64,000 nucleotides of DNA from Saccharopolyspora galaxeae (GTDB taxonomy: Bacteria > Actinomycetota > Actinomycetes > Mycobacteriales > Pseudonocardiaceae). Of this stretch, positions 52,743 through 60,052 are shown one piece after another; positions within the stretch are counted from its first letter, which is position 1; each line of letters opens with the position of its first letter. The stretch spans positions 248,001 to 312,000 of the forward strand of contig NZ_JADDUE010000009.1 in NCBI RefSeq assembly GCF_016526145.1, in the 5' to 3' direction. The translations under genes and the position numbers were made by a program. The notes beneath the pieces are model-generated. The model made no database searches and was not told the origin of the DNA. It saw nothing but the letters and a program-made list of their open reading frames with translations.

Positions 52743-55604
52743 GTGGCCGACCGCCTCGTCGTCCGCGGCGCCCGTGAGCACAACCTGCGCGGGATCGACC
52801 TCGACCTGCCGCGCGACAGCCTCATCGTGTTCACCGGGCTGTCCGGCTCCGGCAAGTCCAGCCTCGCATTCGACACCATCTTCGCGGAGGGCCAGCGGCG
52901 CTACGTGGAGTCGCTCTCGGCGTACGCGCGGCAGTTCCTGGGGCAGATGGACAAGCCCGACGTGGACTTCATCGAAGGCCTCTCGCCCGCGGTGTCGATC
53001 GACCAGAAGTCGACCAGCCGCAATCCGCGCTCCACGGTGGGCACCATCACCGAGGTGCACGACTACCTGCGGCTGCTCTACGCCCGCGCGGGCAACCCGC
53101 ACTGCCCGACCTGCGGTGAGCCGATCAGCAAGCAGACCCCGCAGCAGATCGTCGACCAGGTGCTGGAGATGCCGGAGCGCACCCGCTTCCAGGTGCTCGC
53201 CCCGGTGATCCGCGGCCGCAAGGGCGAGTACGTCGACCTGTTCGAGCAGCTGCAGTCGCAGGGCTACGCGCGCGCCCGGGTGGACGGCGAGGTGCACCAG
53301 CTGGAGTCGCCGCCGAAGCTGAAGAAGCAGGAGAAGCACGACATCGCCGTGGTCGTGGACCGGCTGACGGTGAAGGCGAACGCCAAGCAGCGGCTCACCG
53401 ATTCGATCGAGACCGCGCTGCGGCTGGCCGACGGGCTGGTGGTGCTGGAGTTCGTCGACGTCGAAGAGGGCGACCCGAACCGCGAGCGCCGCTTCTCCGA
53501 GCACCTGGCCTGCCCGAACGGGCACGCGCTGGGCGTGGACGAGCTGGAACCGCGCTCGTTCTCGTTCAACTCGCCCTACGGCGCCTGCGCGGAATGCGCC
53601 GGGCTCGGCATCCGCAAGGAGGTCGATCCCGAGCTCGTCGTGCCGGACGAGGACCTGCCGCTGGGCGATGGCGCCATCGCGCCGTGGGCCGGTGGGCACA
53701 CCGCCGAGTACTTCACCCGGCTGCTGACCTCGCTGTCCGAGTCGGTCGGTTTCCGCATGGACACCCCGTGGAAGCGGTTGCCGACGAAGGTGAAGAAGGC
53801 GGTCCTGCACGGCACCAGCGATCAGGTGCACGTGCGCTACCGGAACCGCTACGGGCGGCAGCGCTCCTACTACGCCTCCTACGAGGGCGTGATCCCGTTC
53901 CTGGAGCGGCGGCTGGAGCAGACCGAGTCCGATTACGCCCGCGAGAAGTACGAGGGCTACATGCGGGACGTGCCCTGCCCGGCCTGCGAGGGAACCCGGC
54001 TCAAGCCCGAGATCCTCGCGGTGACCATGCAGGGCGCCGATCGCGGCGAGCTCTCGATCGCGCAGGTCAGCGCGCTGAGCGTGCAGGACTGCGCGGATTT
54101 CCTGAACGGCCTGGTGCTGGGCCACCGGGAGGAGATGATCGCCGGCCGGGTGCTCAAGGAGGTGCAGGCCCGGCTGGGGTTCCTGCTGGACGTGGGCCTG
54201 GACTACCTGTCGCTGGACCGCGCGGCCGGGACGCTGTCCGGCGGTGAGGCGCAGCGCATCCGGCTGGCCACGCAGATCGGGTCCGGCCTGGTCGGCGTCC
54301 TCTACGTGCTGGACGAACCGTCGATCGGGCTGCACCAGCGGGACAACCACCGGCTGCTGGAGACGCTGAGCCGGCTGCGCGACCTGGGCAACACCCTCAT
54401 CGTCGTCGAGCACGACGAGGACACCGTGCGCAGCGCGGACTGGGTGGTCGACATCGGGCCGGGCGCCGGTGAGCACGGCGGCCACGTCGTGCACTCCGGC
54501 CCGTACAAGCAGCTGCTGGACAACGAGGAGTCGCTGACCGGCGATTACCTCGCCCGCCGCAAGCGGATCCCGTTGCCGCAGAGCCGCCGGGAGCGCAACC
54601 CGAAGCGGCAGTTGACCGTGGTCGGTGCCCGCGAGCACAACCTCGGCAAGATCGATGTGTCGTTTCCCCTGGGCTGCATGATCTCGGTGACCGGCGTGTC
54701 CGGCTCGGGCAAGTCCACCTTGGTCAACGACATCCTGGCGTCGAGCCTGGCGAACAAGCTCAACGGCGCGCGCCAGGTCCCGGGCAGGCACTCCCGGATC
54801 AAGGGCTTGGAGCACGTGGACAAGCTGGTGCAGGTGGACCAGTCGCCGATCGGGCGCACCCCGCGGTCGAACCCGGCGACCTACACCGGCGTGTTCGACC
54901 ACATCCGCAAGCTGTTCGCGGCCACCACGGAGGCGAAGGTCCGCGGCTACCAGCCGGGCCGGTTCTCGTTCAACATCAAGGGCGGCAGGTGCGAGGCGTG
55001 CGCGGGCGACGGCACGCTGCGCATCGAGATGAACTTCCTGCCGGACGTGTACGTGCCGTGCGAGGTGTGCGGCGGTGCGCGGTACAACCGCGAGACCCTC
55101 GAAGTGCACTACAAGGGCAAGACCATCGCCGAGGTGCTGGACATGCCCATCGAGGAGGCCGCGGAGTTCTTCGAGCCGATCAAGGCGATCCACCGGCACC
55201 TCAAGACCCTGGTGGACGTCGGGCTGGGCTACGTGCGGCTGGGCCAGCCGGCGCCGACGCTGTCCGGCGGTGAGGCGCAGCGGGTGAAGCTGGCCAGCGA
55301 GCTGCAGAAGCGTTCCACCGGCCAGACCGTCTACGTCCTCGACGAGCCCACCACGGGACTGCACTTCGAGGACATCCGCAAACTGCTCGGCGTGATCAAC
55401 GGGCTGGTCGACAAGGGCAACACGGTGATCGTGATCGAGCACAACCTGGACGTCATCAAGACTTCCGACTGGCTGCTCGACCTCGGCCCGGAGGGCGGTT
55501 CCGGTGGCGGCGAGCTGGTCGCCGAGGGCACCCCGGAGCAGGTCGCCGAGGTGGACGGCAGCTACACGGGCCGCTTCCTGGCGCCGATGCTCGCGGAGAG
55601 CTGA
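52743..55604 (+). CDS. uvrA: Excinuclease ABC subunit A
   Basis: 953 residues from a GTG at 52743 ([20 protein letters not shown]). Two ABC ATPase modules: [25 protein letters not shown] and [15 protein letters not shown], each with LSGGEAQR signatures and DEP Walker B segments. The zinc-binding modules [14 protein letters not shown] and [18 protein letters not shown] are complete. UvrA recognises DNA damage and loads UvrB. Full length and monocistronic here; a G+C-rich hairpin (55606-55635) follows. Confidence 0.98.
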
Positions 55605-55605
55605 G

Positions 55606-55635
55606 CCGCGGTCCCGGCTCGCGGGGACACCGCGG
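55606..55635 (+). terminator. Hairpin terminator after uvrA
   Basis: CCGCGGT / ACCGCGG 7-bp stem extended by CCC/GGG with a small bulge, directly after the stop codon. Confidence 0.5.
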
Positions 55636-55689
55636 GCCGGGGCGCGGGTTCTTGCCCGACCGCACCGGAATGCGGCGTTCACCCGGCCT

Positions 55690-55895
55690 GCAGTGATGCA
55701 TCCTGCTGTGCATGATTCAGGATTATTGTTGCATTTGCATTGCGCTGTATTTCGTCGCCGTTCTCCTCATTCGTTCAGCGTATTGTTGCGCGGTTTTCCC
55801 GCTCGTATTCTCTGTGTCTGACAGGTCTGCACGGTTTTCCGCCGGTTCGGCTTGCGCGCTGATTCGGCGCGTTGCGGAATGGTTCGGAGGGAATG
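55690..55895 (+). promoter_or_regulatory. AT-rich leader upstream of radical SAM gene
   Basis: About 200 bp that is clearly less GC-rich than the rest of the window, especially 55700-55815 with many T runs. It is followed by the GGAGGGA ribosome binding site before the ATG at 55896. This is the expected place for the cassette promoter, and the composition also hints at recent acquisition. An in-frame reading from ATG 55712 (MIQDYCCICIALYF...) is hydrophobic and Cys-rich but has no ribosome binding site, and I do not call it. Confidence 0.45.
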
Positions 55896-56909
55896 ATGAG
55901 CGGCTCGGCGGCCGGTCCGCAGAAAGTGATTTGGGACGTCACCTACGCTTGCCCGCTGCGGTGCGTGCACTGCTACTCGGAGTCGGGCAGGAGGCCGTCG
56001 CGGCGGCTCGGCCGGGAGGGGCTGCTGCGCGTCACCGACGCGATCATCGAACTCGGTCCGGAGTCCGTCGCGCTGGCCGGCGGCGAACCGTTGCTGGTCA
56101 ACGGCATTTTCGAGGTGGCAGCGCGGTTGCGCTCCGCGGGTGTGCAGGTCGCGTTGTTCACCGGCGGGTGGTCGTTGCGGGCCGAGATGGTCGGCGAACT
56201 CCTGCGCGTCTGCGACACCGTGGTGGTCAGCCTCGACGGAGCGACTGCGGAGGTGCACGACCGCATCCGGGGCAGACCGGGCTCGTTCGCCGCGGCGATG
56301 TCCGCGCTTTCCATGCTCGATAGCGCCATCGAATCGGGCGCGCGCGCCGAAATGGGCGTCGACGGCGTCGTGCTGCGGAGCAATTTCGACCAGCTGGAGC
56401 GGTATTGCACGGAAATCGCGCCGCGATTCCCGCGGTTGAGCGCGCTCGAATTCGGCGCGGTGGTCCCCGCCGGGCTGGCCAGTCGCACCGGATTCGGCGA
56501 GCACGAATTGCTGAGCGAAGAGCAGATGTCCGCGCTCGGCGGTGCCGAACTGCCGCGCCGCCTGCAGTCGCTGGCGCCCGATTCGGTGCAGGTCGGCTGC
56601 ACCGACAACCTCGAGCTGCGGATGGGACCGGACGCACCGGATGAGCTGCCCGTGGTCCAGGTCGAACCCGACGGTGCGGTGCGGGCGATGCCCGTTTACG
56701 AGGGCACCGTCGGCACGCTGCTGTCGGAACCGGGCGACGTGCTCTGGCAGCGTGCGCTTCAGCGCCGCCGCGACCCCTTCGTCGTCGAAGTCCTCTCCGG
56801 TGTGCGCACCGTCCAGCAGTGGGCCGAGGCCGCCCGCACGCTCGATCGGCACTTCGGTTCCGAGCAGGTCCGCGCCCGCATCGACCGCCGCCCGGCCTTC
56901 GCGCCGTAG
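55896..56909 (+). CDS. Radical SAM enzyme with cysteine-free SPASM/twitch-like C-terminus
   Basis: 337 residues from the ATG at 55896 with GGAGGGA upstream. The 4Fe-4S/SAM motif is CPLRCVHC (Cys19, Cys23, Cys26), followed by the SAM-binding LAGGEPLL and VVVSLDGATAEVHD. The C-terminal part (VEPDGAVRAMPVYEGTVGTLL...LWQRAL) has the outline of a SPASM/twitch region, where peptide-modifying enzymes such as MftC and PqqE bind extra clusters. Here the cysteines are missing; only one Cys (VGCTDN) remains. The N-terminal wording resembles RiPP-modifying enzymes. An 11-codon ORF and an MFS exporter follow, suggesting a small peptide pathway. Confidence 0.8.
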   Translation: MSGSAAGPQKVIWDVTYACPLRCVHCYSESGRRPSRRLGREGLLRVTDAIIELGPESVALAGGEPLLVNGIFEVAARLRSAGVQVALFTGGWSLRAEMVGELLRVCDTVVVSLDGATAEVHDRIRGRPGSFAAAMSALSMLDSAIESGARAEMGVDGVVLRSNFDQLERYCTEIAPRFPRLSALEFGAVVPAGLASRTGFGEHELLSEEQMSALGGAELPRRLQSLAPDSVQVGCTDNLELRMGPDAPDELPVVQVEPDGAVRAMPVYEGTVGTLLSEPGDVLWQRALQRRRDPFVVEVLSGVRTVQQWAEAARTLDRHFGSEQVRARIDRRPAFAP

Positions 56910-56982
56910 CGGCGGATTCCGGCGTGAACGCGCCGCACCGGCGCGTTCGGTGTCCCCGCGAGCGGGGGAGGAGGTGATCGTC

Positions 56983-57018
56983 ATGGCGTGGCCGTCCTGG
57001 CCGGAAGGCATTCGCTGA
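56983..57018 (+). CDS. 11-residue ORF MAWPSWPEGIR, candidate minimal RiPP precursor
   Basis: ATG at 56983 preceded by GGGGGAGGAGG (56964-56974), an unusually strong ribosome binding site 8 bp upstream; stop at 57016-57018. An in-frame GTG at 56974 is too close to that site. The peptide carries two Trp-Pro units separated by Ser (W3-P4-S5-W6-P7) and a C-terminal Arg. It starts 73 bp after the radical SAM stop and precedes an exporter gene. Very short RiPP precursors are known (biarylitide MRYYH-type), and Trp-X-Trp crosslinks are made by a radical SAM enzyme in darobactin. That this peptide is the substrate is inference; it could instead be a leader peptide of the MFS gene. Confidence 0.4.
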   Translation: MAWPSWPEGIR

Positions 57019-57337
57019 GGCGGGCCGTGCCGAGCGGCGCCCCGGTTGCTCTGCCGCGGGCGCCGCTCGGACCCGTGCGGGTGATCTTGAACGACTCCGG
57101 CCTGTCGATGGGACAACCGCGGACGCCGACCGGAAACTGGGGAACCGGTCGTTGCGGGACCGGGACGGGGGCAGCAGGCACAGGGCAGCCGGGAACAGGT
57201 CTCAGCCGGCAACGAAGTGCCTCCCGGAACCGGGCATCGCCGGGGATCAAGGCACTGCCGGGGAACGAGACAAGGCCGGCAACGAAGCACTGGGGACCAG
57301 GCCACCGGAGAAGGCCGGCGCAGAGATCTGGGGGCGT
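57019..57337. repeat. Imperfect ~70-bp duplication in leader of MFS gene
   Basis: 319 bp without a convincing gene. Two related blocks, 57177-57220 and 57250-57290, share AGGCAC at the start, a CCGGG(G)AAC centre and the exact 13-mer GCCGGCAACGAAG (57205-57217 and 57275-57287, 70 bp apart). Parts of the pattern recur on both sides. A frame from the GTG at 56988 crosses it and yields Gly-Thr-Gly repeats, which I take to be an artefact of the repeat. Confidence 0.45.
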
Positions 57338-58537
57338 ATGCGGGCCTATCGAGCGTTGTTCGGACACCGGGGAGTTCCCCGCTTGTTCGCCGCGGTCGCG
57401 CTGACCCGGATCGCCCCGCCGATCCTCAACCTGAGCCTGCTGCTGGCGGCCGCGGCCGCCCACGGCTACGCGATCGGCGGCCTGGTGCTGACCGGGTTCT
57501 CGGTCGCCCTGGCGGTGTGCGTGCCGGTTTCCGGCAGGCTGGTGGACCGCTTCCGGCCGCGCGCGGTGCTGCTCGCCCTGCTGGTCGTGCACGTCCTGGC
57601 CTGCGCGGCAACGGTGCTGGCGCTGGCCGCGCAGGCCGGTCCGGCGCTGTTGATCGCGGCAGCGATCGGGGTAGGAGGCAGCGCCCCGCCTGCCGCGCCG
57701 GTGATCCGGGCGAGCTGGCCCGGGATCCTGCCCGCCGAGCAGCTTCGCACCGCCTACGCGCTTGACGCGGTGCTGAACGAGACGATGGTCGTGGGCGGGT
57801 TGCTCGTGGTCTCCGGCCTGCTCGCGCTGGCAGCGCCGGTCGCGGCGGTCGGGGTCGCCGGCGTCTGCACCGCGCTCGGCGTGCTGATCGCAGTGCCGGG
57901 CCTGCGTGCGCCCGCCGAGCGTGTCCGCACCCGTGGCGTTCGCGGCTTCCTCGGCCCGCTCGCGCAAGGGCGGGTGCGGGTGCTGCTCGGCATGGCCGCG
58001 GCGGACATGGTGGCCTTCGGCTGCCTGCTGGTGGGGGTGTCCGCGCTGGCGACCTCGGCCGCCGCGCCGGAAGCCTCCGGCGTGCTGCTGAGCGTCTTCT
58101 CGGCCGGAGCCGTGTTCAGCGCGTTGTGCTACGGCATGCGGGAACGCGACACCGCCGCCCGCCCGCGCCTGGTGGCGTTGCACGCCGTTTCGGCGTTGCT
58201 GCTGGCGATCGTGGCGGCGACGTCCGGACCGGTGCTCGCGGGCGTGGTCCTGCTGCTGCTCGGGCTGGTCAGCGGGATGCGGGACACGCTGCACCAGCTG
58301 GTCCTGGGCAGCGCGGCCGCGGCAGAGCACCGCACCGAGGCGTTCGCGTGGCTGACCACCTGCATGTGGGGCGGCAACGGCATCGGAACCGCCGTGGCCG
58401 GTCAACTGGTCGGCTGGTCGGGCGGTTCGCACCGCGCGGCACTGCTGACCGCGGCGCTCGCGGCCGGGGCGGCCTCGGTGCTCGCGCTCATGCTGCGGGC
58501 GCGCGCGGGTGCGCCGCAGGTTCAGCGGCAGTCGTGA
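57338..58537 (+). CDS. MFS transporter (putative exporter)
   Basis: 399 residues from the ATG at 57338. Twelve predicted helices; the motif between helices 2 and 3 is GRLVDRFRPRAVLL, the usual MFS loop. The central loop is short (PAERVRTRGVRGFLGPLAQGR). It is of the DHA-like efflux layout, with no binding-protein or sugar-symporter hallmarks. It is the only transporter next to the radical SAM gene and the 11-residue ORF, same strand, so it may export their product. Alternatively it is an unrelated drug exporter. Confidence 0.8.
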   Translation: MRAYRALFGHRGVPRLFAAVALTRIAPPILNLSLLLAAAAAHGYAIGGLVLTGFSVALAVCVPVSGRLVDRFRPRAVLLALLVVHVLACAATVLALAAQAGPALLIAAAIGVGGSAPPAAPVIRASWPGILPAEQLRTAYALDAVLNETMVVGGLLVVSGLLALAAPVAAVGVAGVCTALGVLIAVPGLRAPAERVRTRGVRGFLGPLAQGRVRVLLGMAAADMVAFGCLLVGVSALATSAAAPEASGVLLSVFSAGAVFSALCYGMRERDTAARPRLVALHAVSALLLAIVAATSGPVLAGVVLLLLGLVSGMRDTLHQLVLGSAAAAEHRTEAFAWLTTCMWGGNGIGTAVAGQLVGWSGGSHRAALLTAALAAGAASVLALMLRARAGAPQVQRQS

Positions 58538-58669
58538 AGGCTCGCACGCGGTACGGCCACCGAGATGAGCGCAGCTGTCCTGGACGGTGCGCGTCAGTCG
58601 GCGGGACAGGAGAGGGAACCACGGTCCGGCGTGGAGTCCGGCGGCGACGCGGATCGGCGACTATCGCGC

Positions 58670-60052
58670 TCAGATCAGCACGCTCAGCCCGGCCGCCACC
58701 GCGAACGCGCTCAGCGACAGGATCGTCTCCAGCACCGTCCAGGTCTTGAGCATCTCGGCGACGGGGATGCCGAAGTACCGCGAGATGATCCAGAACCCGC
58801 CGTCGTTGACGTGCGAGGCGATGATCGACCCGGCGCCGATGGCGACCGCGACCAGCGCCAGCTGCGGCTGCGAGTAGGCGGATCCGGCCAGCAGCGGCGC
58901 GACGATGCCGCCGGTGGTCACGATCGCGACCGTCGCCGAGCCCTGCGCGATCCGCATCCCGGAGCTGATCAAGTACGCCGATGCGATCACCGGCAGTCCG
59001 GTGGCCTGCAACGATCCGGCCAGCGCATCGCCCACCCCGGTTTCCGAGAGCACTTCGCCGAAGAATCCGCCCGCACCGACGACCAGCAGGATCATGCCCA
59101 GCGGCCGCAGCGCCCGCGCGGTCAGCTCCGCGATGTCCGCCCCGCCCAGGCCGCGCCGCGTGCCCAGCAGCCAGAACGCGATCAACACCGCGATGGTCAG
59201 CGCGACGACCGGATTTCCCAGGAACGTCAACGCGTCCAGCGCGGCACCGGGCGGCAGCGTGATGCCTGCGAAGGTGCCGCCGAGGATCAGCAGCACCGGC
59301 AAGCCGATCACCAGCGCCACCACGCCGAGCGGCGGTTCGCCGGCGTCCTCGGGCGGTTCGCCCGCCGTTTCCGGCACCGGCAGGTGGATGCGGTTGCCGA
59401 TCCACGACGAGTACAGCACGCCCGCCACGACGAACGCGGGGAGTCCGCAGGCCAGCCCCATGATGATGAGCCAGCCCATGTCCACCCCGAGCAGCCCGGC
59501 GGCAACCACCGGCCCGGGGTGCGGCGGCAGGAAGGCGTGCGTCATCGAAAGTCCCGCCACCAGCGGCAGGCAGTACAGCAGGATCGACCGCCCGCCCTGC
59601 CGGGCCGCGACGTAGACCAGCGGCGCGAGCACGAAGATCCCGATGTCGAAGAACACCGGAACGCCGAACACCAGCCCGGCCAGCCCCATCGCCAGCGGCG
59701 CGCGCCGCTGCCCGAACGCCGCCAGCAGCCTGCGGGTGAGCAACTGTGCGCCGCCGGAGTTCTCCAGCACCGCGCCGAGGATCGCGCCGAGCCCGACGAT
59801 CGCGGTGATGTGCCCGAGGATGCTGCCGAATCCGTTCTCCAGCAGGGATTCGCTGCTCTTCTGCGCGGAGCCCACGATGTCGCGCACCGGCAATCCGGCG
59901 GCCAGCGCCAGCAGCAACCCGGTGATGATCAGCGCGATGAACGGCTCCACCCGGAACCGCATGATCATCGTCAGCAGCGCAGCGATCGCGGCCGCGGATA
60001 ACGTCAGCAGCCCGGCGGTGTCGTGCTGCAGCCAGTGCACAACGCTGTACAC
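58670..60052 (-). CDS. GntP-family permease
   Basis: 460 residues from a GTG at 60052 preceded by GAGGAG. About twelve to fourteen helices with the GntP motifs GVPVFFDIGIFVLAPLVY, THAFLPPHPGPVVAAG, QGSATVAIVTTGGIV and ASHVNDGGFWIISRYF. The family imports gluconate and related acids, and also D-serine (DsdX type). The gene directly follows a D-aminoacylase and a D-serine-dehydratase-like gene, so D-serine or another D-amino acid (or its N-acyl form) is the likely substrate. It is last in the operon. Confidence 0.88.
   Translation of the reverse strand: MYSVVHWLQHDTAGLLTLSAAAIAALLTMIMRFRVEPFIALIITGLLLALAAGLPVRDIVGSAQKSSESLLENGFGSILGHITAIVGLGAILGAVLENSGGAQLLTRRLLAAFGQRRAPLAMGLAGLVFGVPVFFDIGIFVLAPLVYVAARQGGRSILLYCLPLVAGLSMTHAFLPPHPGPVVAAGLLGVDMGWLIIMGLACGLPAFVVAGVLYSSWIGNRIHLPVPETAGEPPEDAGEPPLGVVALVIGLPVLLILGGTFAGITLPPGAALDALTFLGNPVVALTIAVLIAFWLLGTRRGLGGADIAELTARALRPLGMILLVVGAGGFFGEVLSETGVGDALAGSLQATGLPVIASAYLISSGMRIAQGSATVAIVTTGGIVAPLLAGSAYSQPQLALVAVAIGAGSIIASHVNDGGFWIISRYFGIPVAEMLKTWTVLETILSLSAFAVAAGLSVLI

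Follow-up and report, generated by a model that had tools for sequence, protein, structure and literature searches.

The window analysed here, a 64,000-nucleotide stretch of Saccharopolyspora galaxeae (contig NZ_JADDUE010000009.1, positions 248,001 to 312,000), contains a small locus in which a gene for a radical S-adenosylmethionine (rSAM) enzyme is followed by an 11-codon open reading frame (ORF), hereafter the micro-ORF, and by a gene for a transporter of the major facilitator superfamily (MFS), all on the plus strand. A first-pass annotation had described this arrangement, and all of its parts were confirmed. We analyzed the locus as a candidate minimal system for a ribosomally synthesized and post-translationally modified peptide (RiPP).

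The locus in Saccharopolyspora galaxeae

The rSAM ORF occupies positions 55896–56909 (+); with a further in-frame ATG at 55893, the gene can be placed at 55893–56909. The deduced protein contained the sequences CPLRCVHC (CxxxCxxC) and GGEP and matched the Pfam family Radical_SAM (E = 3.2e-17), while no second domain scored above the Pfam cut-off. The micro-ORF (56983–57018, +; ATG GCG TGG CCG TCC TGG CCG GAA GGC ATT CGC TGA) starts 73 nt behind the rSAM stop codon. The encoded peptide, MAWPSWPEGIR, with one serine and no cysteine, has no room for a leader, in keeping with the annotation's view that none is needed, and we propose it as a leaderless precursor on the basis of the micro-ORFs found at the same place in orthologous loci and of their common motif (see below). 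It is preceded by the Shine–Dalgarno (SD) sequence GGAGGTGATC (56970–56979, +), a 10-base exact match; SD strength was taken as the longest exact match to a reference string of the 16S tail, typed by hand. This ribosome binding site, previously noted as among the strongest in the window, ranked at the top of its 983 ATGs on both strands (runner-up 8 bases, once), and among the 80 window ATG ORFs of 8–16 codons the runner-up scored 6.

A terminator-like, perhaps leaky, stem-loop (57030–57070, +) was predicted directly 3′ of the micro-ORF: the 70 nt behind it folded with −45.7 kcal/mol (z −2.3), and stem-loops were also found 3′ of seven of the eight other micro-ORFs folded. The MFS transporter, a proposed exporter, was encoded at 57338–58537 (+; Pfam MFS_1, 1.1e-10), and genes 59–60% identical to it occupied the same position in two related loci (L048 and L034). 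The region between the stem-loop and the MFS start (57090–57330) looked repetitive by eye, with variants of GGCAACGAAG and CCGGGAACAGG.

Among six genomes of the genus searched (G000, G401, and G001–G004), the rSAM gene was found at 1e-45 in two, G000 and G401, both of one species; the DNA of G001–G004 matched the window no further than the end of uvrA. The second genome of the species encoded an identical peptide, and the two were 99.6% identical over 1804 bases at this locus. The G+C content was 58% at 55700–55999, 63% in the overlapping interval just before, and 67–77% elsewhere in 54500–59449. The AT-rich upstream region of the first-pass annotation is thus real if modest. The locus is patchy in its presence, and its gain as a cassette is plausible. 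Carriage on plasmids was rejected, as a tblastn search with the rSAM enzyme against 72,556 plasmid records gave no match at 1e-50.

Micro-ORFs beside related rSAM genes

Relatives were collected in a first rSAM search of 60 relatives (matches at 1e-20 in 14), a family search of 390 genomes (13 with an rSAM match at 1e-45, in 17 places), and a scan of GTDB contigs, from which the best 80 of 158 rSAM relatives were retained, representing 76 distinct loci. Gene content was compared in 92 loci: these 76 and 16 wider regions, some overlapping in place. At the class level, the rSAM gene was found at 1e-60 in 5 of 394 genomes, including that of the window. One of the 76 loci, L079 from the myxobacterium Hyalangium versicolor, carried an rSAM copy; the other 75 bear actinobacterial names.

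Outside the window's species, the rSAM relatives were 50–65% identical to the window enzyme. Short ORFs behind them were listed with an SD required but blind to the ORF sequence, and same-place micro-ORFs were found in four further loci of other species (L048, L034, L047, and L068). On the same strand as the rSAM gene, MAYWPPTKVSH was encoded 121 nt behind it in Amycolatopsis regifaucium, MAYWPPTTVSH 73 nt behind it in G215 (genus group of the two Amycolatopsis), MAFWPPAKGTHA 50 nt behind it in A. xylanica (L047), and MALPKLDPRKTW 15 nt behind it in Kutzneria buriramensis (L068). The short ORF is therefore kept as codons beside orthologous rSAM genes, an outcome that supports the idea by the annotation's own test, and its bases are better conserved than its flank: between L048 and L034, the micro-ORF was identical at 34 of 36 positions, the SD stretch at 16 of 17, and the rSAM gene at 852 of 1009, against 43 of 70 in the gap between the rSAM gene and the SD, where 34 further bases could not be aligned. 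The form M-A-W-P-x-W-P, which the annotation also proposed to look for, did not hold up; among the loci examined it was confined to the window's species. The feature common to the loci was an aromatic residue followed by proline—Tyr, Phe, or Trp, or His in lanthipeptide-type precursors. Cysteine was absent from all 18 micro-ORFs.

A second rSAM clade had divergent micro-ORFs in 12 loci of 11 genomes (10 GTDB contigs and 2 family-search regions). In this lineage, the rSAM gene is divergent from two genes for half-transporters of the ATP-binding cassette (ABC) type, beyond which lies a regulator-like gene with a LuxR-like end (by eye). An ORF of 9–14 codons with an SD starts the transporter side, 220–304 nt upstream of where the rSAM match begins. 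The encoded peptides were MMYPPPTVGD, MMYPPPTVGDAS, MRAYPPVDAS, MMYPPPTTSGPRPS, MAFPPTTLGGTR, MRKYPDVGA, MMYPPPTVGTGR (three loci), MAYPPTGLGR (two loci, one with a GTG start), and MAYPPTGVGR; the third bases of their Tyr and Pro codons varied while the residues were kept. At most 120 nt upstream of the micro-ORFs of ten loci (L099, L102, L106, L111, L112, L114, L116, L119, L039, and L040), a DNA element near TTGCGTACnCGAnTACGGAT, with TAGC after it, was conserved; it may serve as promoter and operator in the ABC lineage.

In a scan blind to motif and position (ATG ORFs of 8–14 codons with an SD of at least 8), 957 kb of the 76 rSAM loci yielded 18 ORFs, 16 of them the known micro-ORFs (10 loci, nested double ATGs being counted twice); the other two encoded MSARSGPPH in L074 and L091. 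The micro-ORFs of L047, L112, and L119 fell below this threshold. The same scan, extended to 8–16 codons, returned none from 166 kb of control loci with the lanthipeptide synthetase gene LanKC. Additionally, 386 genomes of the family were searched for MA[FY](W)PP in frame behind GGAGGTG, a pattern which does not fit the window peptide and would not detect GTG starts or other SDs. It gave 24 rows in 22 genomes and was in frame at five places only (G019, G215, G218, G237, and G240), each adjoining an rSAM gene of the family search; the other rows were MAFSPP, MAFMPP, or out of frame, all away from such genes.

The rSAM family and class III lanthipeptide clusters

In a tree of 86 rows (IQ-TREE quick search, root uncertain), the rSAM enzymes of the window, A. 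xylanica, A. regifaucium, and G215 formed one clade (SH-like approximate likelihood ratio test, SH-aLRT, 94), and those of the ABC lineage formed their own (SH-aLRT 100). Both clades nested in a larger set (40 rows, support 81), the rest of which comprised 19 LanKC-linked rows, 4 rows of other types, and Kutzneria, which had a long branch to itself. The LanKC-linked rows of this set include the cores AWPPPT, AWPEPT, and AWPPTT, which are close to AYWPPT. The enzyme family of the micro-ORF loci seems to descend from enzymes modifying lanthipeptide cores, with the leader and LanKC lost; given the uncertain root, such a loss is the simpler reading and not a proof.

A LanKC homologue was encoded near the rSAM gene in 51 of the 76 relatives (55 of the 92 loci compared), a link not foreseen in the first-pass annotation; the 92 loci also contained genes for ABC exporters (45), S9-like peptidases (14), and M28 peptidases (5, in 3 distinct places). 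The single LanKC tested against NCBIfam belonged to class III (997 bits, cut-off 575), and the ALQxL leader model matched two of three precursors tested. Neither LanKC nor an S9-like gene was present in the DNA compared at the micro-ORF loci, and the window genome gave no LanKC match at E 1e-60. Where this rSAM family goes with longer precursors of lanthipeptide type, the aromatic–Pro motif sits in the core part: the LanKC-linked cores include LWPC (SLWPC in the precursor of Streptomyces hiroshimensis), LYPC, LFPC, AHPC, AWPP, and AWPEPT.

Candidate RiPP precursors were recognised in 69 of the 76 loci. This count is no motif test since some longer precursors were found through filters requiring [FYW]PC, [FYWH]P, or leader motifs; the motif tests proper are the SD scan above and a comparison by leader rule. 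The rule (L[QD]x[LM] within the 30 N-terminal residues, an SD of at least 5, and 20–60 residues) is blind to aromatic–Pro and was applied within 1.5 kb of the plus-strand LanKC gene in 47 loci. The controls were 30 LanKC loci of the family, obtained from the top matches of a search in which 88 of 160 genomes bore LanKC; in the DNA compared, rSAM genes were found in none of them, nor in five wider control regions. Aromatic/His–Pro was present in 39 of 40 leader-rule ORFs of rSAM loci against 2 of 23 in controls (Fisher 1.9e-13), and aromatic–Pro without His in 32 of 40 against 0 of 23, both control exceptions being His–Pro. One match (L074, VPIDADRAM...) and the single miss (L070, VHNDADLAM...) are chance-looking ORFs, and both were counted. 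One of three precursors in L071 (LRSC) was without the motif. From this contrast, the rSAM family is probably a maturase of aromatic–Pro sites, and two of its lineages probably keep substrates of 9–14 residues without leader or LanKC.

Several genes near the rSAM genes were grouped in clusters (c5, c7, and c10) named by eye with no family search. A gene resembling those of cytochromes P450 (c5) occurred in LanKC clusters whose precursors have AHPC or LHPC (L050–L052, L054, L056–L059, L073, L085, and L107); more than one oxidative change may thus be present in these peptides. A 2-oxoglutarate oxygenase-like gene (c10) was near the rSAM gene in L060, L061, L066, L076, L077, and L083, five of which had LWPC, QWPC, or HWPC precursors. 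The ORF adjoining the rSAM gene of G039 (L003) was FxLD-like by eye and contained DYPEPT; it matched no NCBIfam model, and we do not claim it as FxLD.

Only C19, C23, and C26 of the enzyme were invariant (85 of 85 rows) among cysteines, and no cysteines for auxiliary clusters were kept. Together with the domain match and motifs, this pattern leads us to propose a peptide maturase with a single [4Fe-4S] cluster. The nearest solved folds included SkfB, viperins, and SuiB; SkfB, a peptide maturase, came first by profile search and Foldseek and was tied with viperin by VIA-align. An AlphaFold2 model of the enzyme alone (52 sequences) had a predicted local distance difference test score of 94.5. 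Its first strand begins at residue 10, leaving no N-terminal leader-binding domain (a separate leader-binding protein was not searched for); the model fits a maturase working without a leader, though it is not a proof of one.

As to the reaction, a crosslink from the aromatic ring is our tentative first choice, and the set of Trp, Phe, Tyr, and His agrees with it. A C-alpha change such as epimerisation appears somewhat less likely, and another oxidation ranks third; leucine in Kutzneria speaks for backbone chemistry, or for an altered enzyme there. Radical SAM peptide epimerases with a Cys hydrogen donor have a conserved catalytic cysteine outside the cluster. Position C171 was Cys in 73 of 85 rows and Ala, Ser, Leu, or Val in 12, the majority of which have LWPC or VWPC precursors; this somewhat weakens the case for epimerisation through a conserved cysteine.

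Interpretation and comparison with known systems

A candidate precursor gene and an adjacent putative modifying enzyme conserved together, the arrangement expected of a RiPP system, were found at these loci, and we consider it likely that the micro-peptide itself is the substrate of the adjacent rSAM enzyme, whichever single reaction is involved. The near-perfect SD would ensure a high translation rate of the 11-codon gene, and the enzyme, using a single radical cluster, would recognise and modify the aromatic–Pro unit, which is W-P in the window and Y/F/W/H-P among its relatives. The stem-loop after the stop codon would probably pass only part of transcription to the exporter gene, so that the precursor is proposed to outnumber the exporter. 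The product would leave the cell through the MFS pump, or through the ABC pair in the sister lineage, and would be trimmed by aminopeptidases. Three Amycolatopsis-group loci encode an M28 peptidase that has a PA domain and, by eye, a signal-peptide-like N-terminus; this peptidase could trim the N-terminus of the product and might halt before Pro. Stepwise trimming has a class III precedent (PMC10885120). With somewhat less assurance, we favour a new RiPP class, in which a leader-free, single-cluster rSAM enzyme reads a two-residue aromatic–Pro signature in substrates of 9–14 codons (MRKYPDVGA being the shortest) and has been freed from leader and LanKC in two lineages.

Several observations weigh against the reading of the micro-peptide as substrate. 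The Kutzneria micro-ORF has Leu-Pro instead of aromatic–Pro and, as the one exception among nine folded, no stem-loop behind it. Within its clade, the window peptide diverges most, and since both genomes in which it was seen belong to one species, there is hardly any test of its own codons. No precursor was recognised in 7 of the 76 loci (L053, L055, L065, L079, L083, L103, and L121; L083 is truncated by its contig end) or in any of the four class-level loci L124–L127, with flanks of only 1.5 kb. In the 17 places of the family search, moreover, none was recognised for G263 or the second copy in G101 (G101:C149). In the leader-rule comparison, the contig of one control exception (L130) also carries two rSAM copies about 25–30 kb away, and the LanKC genes of cases and controls may come from different branches, so the test is not free of kinship.

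Of the rival explanations, one is compatible with a leaderless RiPP: aromatic–Pro could be a protease signal, a cut after Pro by a prolyl oligopeptidase or an aminopeptidase stop before it, with the rSAM enzyme acting elsewhere on the peptide. We regard this as unlikely. The S9-like and M28 homologues (in 14 and 5 of the 92 loci) fit it, as does FlaP, a prolyl oligopeptidase of family S9 described as cutting a class III precursor after a leader Pro (PMC10885120). However, an S9-like gene was found in no micro-ORF locus of the DNA compared and is lacking from most LanKC loci, and the motif tracks the rSAM gene in the control comparison, which left the peptidases of control loci outside.

The micro-ORF might also encode a regulatory leader peptide, on whose Pro-rich codons stalling ribosomes switch the stem-loop gating the transporter gene, in the style of drug-export attenuators. 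The stem-loop directly after the stop codon in eight of nine folded micro-ORFs fits this arrangement too and counts against a substrate role. So do the strong SD, the Pro-rich peptides (PPP, WPP), the transporter gene that comes next in the window, L048, L034, and the ABC lineage, and the two-sided changes (at least one in 5 of 14 pairs, 10 sequences) in the stem-loop of the ABC lineage, where some cells were broken at uncertain alignment. Nevertheless, the next gene in A. xylanica encodes the M28 peptidase, no homologue of the MFS or ABC exporters (the only transporters sought) was found in the DNA compared there or in Kutzneria, the constant partner is the rSAM gene, and an attenuator makes little sense of the same motif in the core of longer lanthipeptide-type precursors; we therefore find this explanation improbable. 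That the micro-peptide is an unmodified signal or small protein and the enzyme works on a small molecule is very improbable: viperins and BlsE, whose substrates are nucleotides or nucleosides, also rank high in the fold search, but RiPP precursor candidates lie in 69 of 76 rSAM loci and SkfB tops two of the searches, its tie with viperin by VIA-align notwithstanding.

In the parts of the open-access literature covered (subscription journals were outside the search), we found neither a radical SAM enzyme with a leaderless precursor of 9–14 residues nor an aromatic–Pro motif in rSAM-linked lanthipeptides. If the micro-peptides are indeed substrates, they would be among the smallest known for a peptide-modifying radical SAM enzyme, and the enzyme could serve to alter short Pro-containing peptides with no need of a leader. 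The natural series from leader-bearing lanthipeptide to micro-peptide lets leader dependence be tested within one enzyme family. The pathway would be unusually small and easily overlooked in genome annotation. RiPP genes of fewer than 15 codons are easily missed there, but SD strength together with the enzymes encoded nearby can reveal them.

SkfB, the mycofactocin maturase, and SPASM-type maturases are among the best relatives of known function by sequence or fold. The window enzyme scored 93.2 bits with the mycofactocin maturase model (TIGR03962), far below its curated cut-off of 265, and it shares the CxxxCxxC domain of SPASM-type maturases, whereas their C-terminal auxiliary-cluster cysteines are absent from its family. 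Formers of three-residue cyclophanes (triceptides) make a crosslink from the aromatic ring within aromatic-x-x, and the set of Trp, Phe, Tyr, and His agrees with that family, while leucine in Kutzneria does not.

In darobactin, a Trp–Trp ether link joins the W-N-W core behind a 48-residue leader, and DarE has a SPASM/twitch domain with further clusters (PMC9055067). Daropeptides resemble the proposed system in pairing a radical SAM enzyme with a short Trp-containing core; they are defined by W-x-W behind a long leader, whereas the window has W-P-S-W and no leader. The first-pass annotation, which had taken WPSWP for a darobactin-like core and whose interpretation is overall partly supported, failed on this point: M-A-W-P-x-W-P is not conserved, and so a darobactin-like Trp–Trp bridge is not supported. 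As a general rule it was rejected, since the relatives have other aromatic–Pro forms without W-x-W.

Radical SAM genes occur in lanthipeptide clusters (PMC7268733). The known class III cluster of NorA includes an S9 peptidase, and its precursor bears a LELQEL leader; no radical SAM gene is named for this cluster in the text available (PMC10206099). Class III lanthipeptides share with the micro-ORF loci the rSAM family (nearby in 51 of 76), aromatic–Pro, and ABC exporters, but they have LanKC, a leader (ALQxL or LxLQxL), and precursors in which Ser/Thr and Cys supply lanthionine-type rings; neither LanKC, nor a leader, nor a peptide Cys was found at the micro-ORF loci in the DNA compared. The bottromycin precursor BotA has a follower and is processed with several other enzymes. 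Like the micro-peptides, it has no canonical leader, and its Met is removed by the aminopeptidase BotP (PMC10885120). The micro-peptides differ in being only 9–14 residues in all. Proline is not known as a hallmark of biarylitides, which use a P450 and a 5-residue precursor, whereas the window has a radical SAM enzyme and 11 residues. They are the closest published idea to the system proposed here, with a precursor gene that annotation misses for its shortness, hardly any leader, aromatic residues, and one crosslinking enzyme (PMC13417212, PMC12951456).

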